The notes beneath the pieces are model-generated. The model was not told where the DNA came from and did no database searches. It was given only the letters and a program-made list of their open reading frames with translations. Both the position numbers and the translations under genes were made by a program. Of a DNA stretch of 64,000 bases, positions 5,162-6,668 are shown piece after piece. Source of the DNA: Clostridiaceae bacterium (GTDB lineage Bacteria; Bacillota; Clostridia; UBA1212; DUPL01); the NCBI GenBank assembly GCA_012838385.1, contig DUPL01000068.1:1-64000 (forward strand), read 5' to 3'. The first letter of the stretch is position 1, and the number at the start of each line of letters is the position of its first letter.

Positions 5162-6076
5162 ATATTTGGATACGTTACACCATACAGACCTGAGCTTAAG
5201 ATTAGGGAACACGACTGCTATAAAATGTACTATTGTGGTGTATGCAGGAGCATTGGAACGCACTTTGGCCAGATTCCCAGATTGGGTCTGACTAATGAAA
5301 CCGGCATGCTAGCCATGATTCTGGATGCAGTGTGTAAATCGAATAAGAATGTTAAAACAATAAGGAAACCTTGTGTTGCTCACCCTCACAAAAAGACTTT
5401 ATCTGTAACAAACAACGGCTGCGTGGACTATGCAGCCTTAGTTAATGTTTTGCTTGCATATCACAAACTGAAGGACAACTGGCTTGACGACAGAAATGTT
5501 CTTGCTCAGACAGGCTCATTAATGATGTTCAGAGCTTACAAAAAGGCTAAAAAGAAAAATCCCGAGCTGTCGGATACTATTCAAAAGCATTTGGACGAGC
5601 TGTCACAATTGGAAAAATCAAAGTGCTCATCCATAGACAGAGCAGCCGATCCTTTCTCAAGTTTGATGAGGATAATATTCACCAGTTACAACGCTCTTGA
5701 TGAAAATAAATTTGCTCTTATGGGCAAGTTAGGATATAATATCGGGAAGTGGATTTATTTAATAGATGCACTGAATGATCTTGAAGCCGACATAAAAAAG
5801 GGAAGTTACAACTGTTTGGTATACAAGTACGAGTATCAGGATAATGAAAACATAGAAGAGTTCAAAGCTAAAGTGTCGGAGGATTTTAGATTTTCACTTG
5901 AGATGTGTCTTGCATCAATTTCCGAGGCATGGGAAGGCTTGAAAGACGATTTAGATGACTTTACTATAACACAGGATGCAGAACATTTTTTAGATAATGT
6001 CTTTTATCTTGGGATGAGACAGAAAACAGATAATCACTTAAATGGCGGGATTAAGGGAGATGATGACAATGAATGA
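5162..6076 (+). CDS. DUF5685 family protein, probable AUA start
   Basis: Cytosolic protein of about 304 residues, function unknown. The family N-terminus is expected to read M-FGYV-x-PELK-x-RE. Here FGYVTPYRPELKIRE is encoded from 5165, in frame but upstream of the first ATG (5225). The codon where Met is expected, at 5162, is ATA. AAGGGGG (5147-5153) sits 8 bases before it, just after the pgsA stop. Visible motifs: CGVC (CxxC) near residue 25, a CVAHPHK segment, DNWLDD at 105-110, and NDLEAD at 205-210 followed by G214 and Y216. The two Asp-rich motifs recall class I isoprenoid synthases (inference). The last 8 bases overlap the J-protein start, suggesting translational coupling. With the first ATG instead, the protein would be 283 residues. 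Confidence 0.8.
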   Translation: MFGYVTPYRPELKIREHDCYKMYYCGVCRSIGTHFGQIPRLGLTNETGMLAMILDAVCKSNKNVKTIRKPCVAHPHKKTLSVTNNGCVDYAALVNVLLAYHKLKDNWLDDRNVLAQTGSLMMFRAYKKAKKKNPELSDTIQKHLDELSQLEKSKCSSIDRAADPFSSLMRIIFTSYNALDENKFALMGKLGYNIGKWIYLIDALNDLEADIKKGSYNCLVYKYEYQDNENIEEFKAKVSEDFRFSLEMCLASISEAWEGLKDDLDDFTITQDAEHFLDNVFYLGMRQKTDNHLNGGIKGDDDNE

Positions 6077-6668
6077 TCCATATAAAATTTTGGGTGTAAA
6101 AGAAACCGACTCTGATGAAGAAATTAAGAGGGCTTACAGGGAACTTGTTAAAAAGTATCATCCTGACCAGTATGCCAACAATCCCTTGTCCGAACTTGCC
6201 GACGAGAAAATCAAGGAGATTAATGCTGCGTACGATCAAATAATGCGCGAGAGACAAAATAAATCTCAAGGCACTTATTCCCGCAGCTCAACATATAACT
6301 CAGAATACGATGAAATATGGAATCTTATCCAAAGAGGAGAACTGGGACTTGCCGAAAGCAAACTACTTGACATTCCTGTAGAAAGCAGGGATGCCCATTG
6401 GTATTATCTAATGGGTGAAATAGCGAGGCAAAAAGGCTGGTATGACGAAGCAAGAATGAATTTCACAAGAGCTATCAACATGGATCCCAACAACATGGTC
6501 TACAGAAGAGCACTTAATTCAATGTATAATCAGGCAGGCAATTACAGAAGGACATCAGACAGATCCGGGTACAATCCTTCTTGTGATATGTGCGAGTTTT
6601 GTACTTATCTGTGGTGTGCAGACTGTTGTTGTGAATGTATGGGCGGAGATTTGATTACCTGTTGTTAA
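6069..6668 (+). CDS. J-domain protein with TPR-like repeat and Cys-rich tail
   Basis: 199 residues. An N-terminal J domain (residues 1-65) starts MNDPYKILGVKE and contains the HPD motif (YHPDQY) that stimulates DnaK ATPase. A central TPR-like helical pair spans roughly 110-150. The last 30 residues hold ten cysteines, including CCC and a terminal CC, which could bind metal or form disulfides. It lacks the Gly/Phe region and zinc-finger repeats of true DnaJ, so it is an accessory co-chaperone. Start at 6069 is chosen because AGGGAG ends 9 bases upstream and family members begin MNDPY; ATGs at 6060 and 6063 are alternatives. It overlaps the DUF5685 gene by 8 bases and probably works with it. 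Confidence 0.85.
   Translation: MNDPYKILGVKETDSDEEIKRAYRELVKKYHPDQYANNPLSELADEKIKEINAAYDQIMRERQNKSQGTYSRSSTYNSEYDEIWNLIQRGELGLAESKLLDIPVESRDAHWYYLMGEIARQKGWYDEARMNFTRAINMDPNNMVYRRALNSMYNQAGNYRRTSDRSGYNPSCDMCEFCTYLWCADCCCECMGGDLITCC

Follow-up and report, generated by a model that had tools for sequence, protein, structure and literature searches.

A DUF5685 protein with a predicted class I isoprenoid-synthase fold and its Cys-tailed J-protein partner in a Clostridiaceae bacterium

Results

The window analysed here, a 64,000-nucleotide stretch of contig DUPL01000068.1 from a Clostridiaceae bacterium, carries near its start two overlapping genes on the forward strand, one for a protein of the DUF5685 family (PF18937) and one for a J-protein with a Cys-rich tail (Table 1). 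The frame of the first, 5162-6076 (+), is open, and the motif residues to which the initial annotation had drawn attention were numbered correctly within it. Its 304 residues match the PF18937 profile from the first codon onwards (E 1.3e-78; 264.6 bits against a gathering score of 26.7; profile positions 1-271 of 272), and we found just one DUF5685 copy in the genome. A Pfam search at E up to 5 returned DUF5685 and one chance DUF and nothing else, so that neither SQS_PSY (PF00494) nor polyprenyl_synt matched the window protein at that threshold. NCBIfam and PADLOC searches gave no useful match, PDB sequence searches with the single protein and with a 47-sequence profile returned nothing meaningful, and in the open-access literature we found a single paper that names the family, as an entry in a list.

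Table 1. Features of the DUF5685 locus in the window
Feature	Position	Strand	Evidence
DUF5685 protein, 304 aa, ATA start, predicted class I isoprenoid-synthase fold	5162..6076	+	PF18937 E 1.3e-78; AF2; PDB top 50
Non-canonical initiation codon ATA (inferred start), Shine-Dalgarno-like AAGGGGG upstream	5162..5164	+	Conserved [M/I/L/V]FGY N-terminus; ATA/ATT at same codon in 13 members of one clade including the window
C25-x-x-C28 (YCGVC), invariant Cys pair on helix 14-35	5234..5245	+	85/85; predicted secondary structure
C71, third invariant Cys, end of strand 65-70	5372..5374	+	85/85; predicted secondary structure
First Asp-rich motif D105-NWL-D109, C-terminal end of helix 86-110	5474..5488	+	D105 85/85, D109 83/85; aligns with first Asp motif of squalene/phytoene synthases
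E151, near-invariant acidic residue, end of helix 134-152	5612..5614	+	84/85
Second Asp-rich motif, D202-LIDALN region: D202-ALN-D206-LEA-D210-IKKGSY-N217	5765..5812	+	D202, D206, D210, N217 all 85/85; aligns with NILRDIGED of SQS_PSY
Partner: DnaJ domain + TPR + Cys-string tail	6060..6668	+	PF00226 E 1.4e-16, TPR_8; next gene in nearly all relatives
Cys-rich C-terminal tail of partner, 28 residues, CDMCEFCTYLWCADCCCECMGGDLITCC-COOH	6582..6665	+	Partner tails in 75/84 loci (loose count); exact core only beside DUF5685 (299 genomes)

ATA and ATT are rare start codons, and with the ATA that appears to open the DUF5685 gene of the window, automatic ORF calling begins at the next ATG, 5225. Such a call loses 21 conserved residues, the [M/I/L/V]FGY N-terminus among them. 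Within the clade around the window, 13 of 15 sequences begin with ATA or ATT (the window itself at 5162-5164; L005-L013, L015, L017 and L018), each time with a Shine-Dalgarno-like sequence within 18 bases upstream, and gene callers therefore truncate DUF5685 in this clade. As read from the sequences, these starts suggest translational control of DUF5685, possibly IF3-dependent; for Streptomyces sigR, IF3 has been described as repressing a non-canonical start (PMC5472188). Three genomes carry DUF5685 matches in two pieces or with a stop (G117:C14:41693-42430, G152:C16:25799-26512 and G165:C4:6175-6777), which are either divergent members or decaying copies; in G117 and G152 the Cys-tail motif still adjoins the broken match.

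We aligned 85 distinct DUF5685 sequences from Firmicutes and Actinobacteria, drawn from whole genomes, named genome contigs and plasmid or phage records. D105, D202, D206 and D210 are present in all 85 and D109 in 83; C25, C28, C71, G195 and N217 are likewise invariant (85/85 each) and E151 is kept in 84. The initial annotation had proposed DNWLDD and NDLEAD...G..Y as the two Asp-rich motifs of an isoprenoid synthase, with CGVC and CVAHPHK as a possible metal site. The first motif survives through D105 and D109 but not D110 (26/85), and the second through D206 and D210 but not G214 (40/85); the three Cys of the putative metal site stand, whereas CVAHPHK as a whole is partly conserved (H74, 61/85). 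D202, absent from that annotation, joins D206 and D210 in a D-x3-D-x3-D triad. Their conservation leads us to lean towards a predicted three-Cys metal site formed by C25, C28 and C71.

The protein is Asp-rich (26 D among 304 residues), and DxxxD followed by [ND]xxxDxxxD at 60-160 residues arises in 7.5% of shuffles of the window protein, so that taken on its own the bare motif carries little weight. The full NDx3Dx3GxY plus DxxxD pattern appeared in 0 of 20,000 shuffles, a figure that has to be read with the pattern having been picked after seeing the sequence. Because composition alone can produce the bare pattern, it is conservation and fold that carry the argument.

An AlphaFold2 (AF2) model of the window protein, built from a 47-sequence alignment, has a pLDDT of 92.7 and a pTM of 0.91. 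Every one of its 50 best PDB matches is a class I isoprenoid synthase (IspB/OPPS, FPPS, GGPPS or MoeN5; probability 0.97-1.00); TM-scores lie at about 0.35-0.57, and Foldseek E values start at 1.8e-3, none falling below 0.001. A second model, from the relative L041, which is 20% identical to the window protein, has a confident core (pre-tail residues mostly above 90), and its top 50 PDB matches are again only isoprenoid synthases, MoeN5 first (best E 1.7e-4; TM-score by target length against MoeN5 0.63-0.67, the GPP complex included). A viral structure library yielded only weak prenyltransferase matches. Asp motifs are expected at helix ends in the class I isoprenoid-synthase fold, and in the model of the window protein D105/D109 end helix 86-110, D202 ends helix 181-205 and D206/D210 lie just past the break (helix 207-213). 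From these helix positions and the fold match we infer that both Asp motifs face one cavity. Judged by the two models, DUF5685 very probably has a class I (all-alpha) isoprenoid-synthase fold. We also looked for the opposite outcomes, an unrelated fold or variable Asp, and found a fold that matches isoprenoid synthases and motif Asp that are essentially invariant.

Kinship with the squalene/phytoene synthases can also be seen at the level of sequence profiles. Aligned by HHalign with an SQS_PSY profile built from 12 Firmicute proteins, the DUF5685 profile gave E 0.0011 over profile columns 69-284 at about 12% identity, with both Asp motifs in register: the first Asp motif of SQS_PSY (YAFCRKVDDIVDE) lies opposite D105/D109, and the N-x3-D-x3-D of NILRDIGED opposite D202/D206/D210. 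A gap-trimmed repeat scored 31.7, whereas 400 column shuffles reached 25.4 at most (0/400 as high) and the reversed profile scored 17.3. The HHalign probability is just 20-24%, so homology to SQS_PSY is remote; taken together, fold, motif register and conservation make the case for it convincing. Similarity to the polyprenyl synthetase (PF00348) profile was not significant (71/400 shuffles as high), and in place of the DDxxD of PF00348 the first DUF5685 motif reads DxxxD. On these comparisons DUF5685 is a divergent branch of the superfamily, nearest by sequence to squalene/phytoene synthases and outside both the SQS_PSY and the polyprenyl synthetase family models. The class I likeness claimed in the initial annotation is thus borne out by two AF2 models and by the SQS_PSY alignment with both motifs in register. 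Invariant Asp and motif register together point to a Mg-diphosphate site that is probably intact, binding being predicted because the ligand positions are kept. The genome encodes its own PF00348 prenyl-diphosphate synthase; no match to a PF00494 protein was found in it.

The partner gene overlaps the end of DUF5685: the DUF5685 stop lies at 6074-6076, and the partner frame opens at 6042, with ATG codons at 6060, 6063 and 6069. Its J-TPR product terminates in the Cys-rich string CADCCCECMGGDLITCC-COOH. At 75 of 84 distinct loci the protein following DUF5685 has a Cys-rich C-terminus, by a loose count of at least four Cys in the last 40 residues that includes L046, yet that locus is tail-less on inspection; a frequent clostridial ending is CADCCCECMGGDLIxCC-COOH. 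Among 299 genomes of the phylum, three contain the exact DNA core of the tail, beside DUF5685 each time, and a related tail core searched in ten DUF5685-bearing genomes gave exact matches only beside DUF5685. The link to a J-protein neighbour drawn in the initial annotation was well placed, in that a Cys-tailed gene adjoins DUF5685 in nearly all relatives. Its link to pgsA fell away: pgsA adjoins DUF5685 in only a few window relatives, the upstream gene elsewhere being pfkA or unrelated, and we rejected it as a functional partner. The neighbours pfkA, polC, mutS2 and aspS are common to close relatives only, and pgsA to fewer still.

The domains that carry the tail vary. In L042 and L047 the partners are TPR-only proteins of 123-125 residues with the same ending (LDTCCECMGGDIIECC and LDTCCECMGGDFISCC), that of L076 is without a Pfam DnaJ match, and those of L031 and L025 have a J domain and tail without a TPR match. 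A J domain as an essential part of the partner is ruled out by L042 and L047 (TPR and tail, no J domain) and by L076; since J and TPR domains are each missing in some partners, what stays constant among the partners is the tail and not the J domain. In L041 (1501-2628) and in the actinobacterial L132, L133, L134 and L138, four plasmid-collection records that make up our picture of Actinobacteria, DUF5685 itself carries the tail, fused to its C-terminus. To account for this fused state the tree requires two changes, imposed by branches with good support, although the placement of the long L041 branch is uncertain. Tails also differ in composition, being acidic (CCCECMGGD), hydrophobic (LCFGLCIADLCCPFC) or metallothionein-like (CGNCGNCCSCC), and this variety would also fit metal binding. 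Members of the L043-L046 clade retain all Asp and Cys of DUF5685, but we could recognise no tail either in cis or in the several kb around the gene (wider context in L139-L142). The tail therefore cannot be the sole target, and the partner in this clade may lie elsewhere or have been lost. Across the loci, genomic association makes a functional link between DUF5685 and the Cys tail very likely.

The tail of the window partner recalls eukaryotic cysteine-string proteins, ends in CC like Rab proteins and is conserved across many Clostridia; our literature search turned up no paper combining all the terms for a bacterial cysteine-string J-protein. DUF5685 is also present on two unverified contigs from human faeces that are labelled 'Bacteriophage sp.' (L136 and L137), followed in L136 by a Cys-tailed J-protein gene. 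Their DUF5685 sequences group with Lachnospiraceae-like ones, and they may be bacterial contigs labelled as phage.

Discussion

Our reading of this locus joins an isoprenoid-synthase fold, an active Mg-diphosphate site and the tail as the partner with which it works, thiol prenylation being the leading candidate for the reaction; as a whole we put it forward tentatively, at somewhat less than even confidence. In such a reaction D105/D109 and D202/D206/D210 would hold Mg2+ together with the diphosphate group of a prenyl donor and bring about the ionisation of that donor, which would be FPP or similar, supplied by the genome's own IspA-type enzyme. The three invariant Cys would hold a Zn-like metal that activates a thiol, and the allyl group would pass to the tail cysteine(s) of the J-TPR or TPR partner, or of the protein's own tail in the fused forms. 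The outcome would be a lipid-anchored J/TPR protein.

Parts of this scheme have precedents. In the isoprenoid-synthase superfamily, ComQ prenylates the ComX peptide, whose gene adjoins its own (PMC5331326), and S-alkylating enzymes, farnesyltransferase included, share Zn-thiolate activation, MetH doing so with three Cys ligands (PMC539065). The characterised trans-IDS-like peptide prenyltransferases all modify Trp, not Cys (PMC13290415), and this Trp-only precedent, the metal-binding-like tails and the tail-less clade count against Cys prenylation. Taken by itself, prenylation of the tail thiols by DUF5685, argued by analogy, is a possibility that we hold to be unlikely. We would say the same of the proposal in its fullest form, which is speculative: that DUF5685 is a bacterial protein-cysteine prenyltransferase, with a squalene/phytoene-synthase-like fold and a three-Cys metal site, that lipid-anchors a Cys-string J/TPR co-chaperone and represents an independent invention of protein S-prenylation on a fold for which this reaction is not known.

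The same fold and motif evidence would serve an enzyme that makes a small isoprenoid by condensation or cyclisation of prenyl diphosphates, with the Cys-tailed J/TPR protein acting as chaperone, metal donor or membrane scaffold and not as substrate. The spacing of D202/D206/D210 is that of the second motif of the hydrocarbon-making SQS_PSY enzymes, the partner's domains are those of a chaperone (DnaJ) and a scaffold (TPR), and an accessory role of the tail would make the tail-less clade easier to explain. However, no terpenoid gene lies among the window's tracked neighbours, the Cys-tailed gene alone among them being shared with distant relatives, and the repeated fusion to the tail suggests tight coupling. 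We also know of no counterpart of the three invariant Cys among terpene synthases, and consider the production of a small isoprenoid rather unlikely overall. It may be instead that the fold has been reused for metal or sulfur handling, in which case the tail would be a metallothionein-like or redox carrier exchanging metal or thiols with CxxC...C, and the Asp cluster would bind metal and no prenyl diphosphate. The actinobacterial tails look metallothionein-like (CCGNCGNCCSCCSGEDGGCGCDGCSCGCD), three invariant Cys accompany a Cys-rich tail that is predicted to be disordered without ligand, and fusion in cis would suit an intramolecular carrier. We consider such a role rather unlikely as well. 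At the Mg-diphosphate positions of the fold essentially 100% of the sequences keep a correctly spaced Asp, whereas non-catalytic relatives tend to lose their motifs, as in the small subunit of a heteromeric prenyltransferase (PMC7839719).

All of these readings presuppose that the likeness to isoprenoid synthases is real. One might attribute it to coincidence in an Asp-rich, all-helical protein that in truth has nothing to do with isoprenoids in fold or function, given that DxxxD then [ND]xxxDxxxD arises in 7.5% of shuffles, that the TM-scores of the window model are only about 0.4-0.57 and that at E up to 5 the Pfam search matched neither SQS_PSY nor polyprenyl_synt. Yet two models each give only the isoprenoid-synthase fold in their best 50 PDB matches, 0/400 shuffled SQS_PSY profiles reach the real score and the Asp are invariant. 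By the fold matches and the shuffle control coincidence is largely refuted, and we regard it as very improbable.

DUF5685 is widespread, being found in Clostridia, Actinobacteria and Thermotoga maritima, and it gains here a testable biochemical identity. Together with its companion it would constitute an undescribed two-part module, a protein of predicted isoprenoid-synthase fold and a conserved Cys-rich C-terminal tail carried on J-TPR, TPR-only or fused proteins. Should the tail be prenylated, this would be bacterial Cys prenylation machinery on a fold known so far, for peptides, only for Trp; otherwise a new system that handles metals or terpenes, and has a J-protein dedicated to it, would still call for an explanation.

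Among known systems, the squalene/phytoene synthases (PF00494; CrtM, HpnC/HpnD and SQS) share with DUF5685 a DxxxD first motif and a second motif with acidic or Asn residues at 0, +4 and +8, followed by an aromatic residue, whereas the three invariant Cys, a beta-hairpin (65-83) ahead of the first motif and the Cys-tail partner set DUF5685 apart. MoeN5 and the trans-isoprenyl diphosphate synthases (PF00348) are the best structural matches of both DUF5685 models, but the first motif of DUF5685 is DxxxD and not DDxxD, and the sequence-profile similarity is not significant. ComQ, PalQ and the P-domain of ChrPC, trans-IDS-like peptide prenyltransferases, belong to the isoprenoid-synthase superfamily, and the ComQ gene directly precedes its peptide substrate gene (PMC5331326, PMC13290415). 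These enzymes act on peptide Trp, in contrast to the Cys-rich tail of the DUF5685 partner, and the second motif is degenerate in ComQ but complete in DUF5685. DNAJC5 (cysteine-string protein) and farnesylated Ydj1/DNAJA1 are J-proteins with a Cys-rich or prenylated C-terminal region; the partner described here differs from them in being bacterial, in bearing its tail at the extreme C-terminus and in its TPR linker, and we claim no homology of the tails and only propose a lipid. The eukaryotic protein farnesyl- and geranylgeranyltransferases have a different fold, and homology with DUF5685 is not claimed; as proposed, the resemblance would lie in the use of a metal-activated Cys thiol and a prenyl-diphosphate donor.
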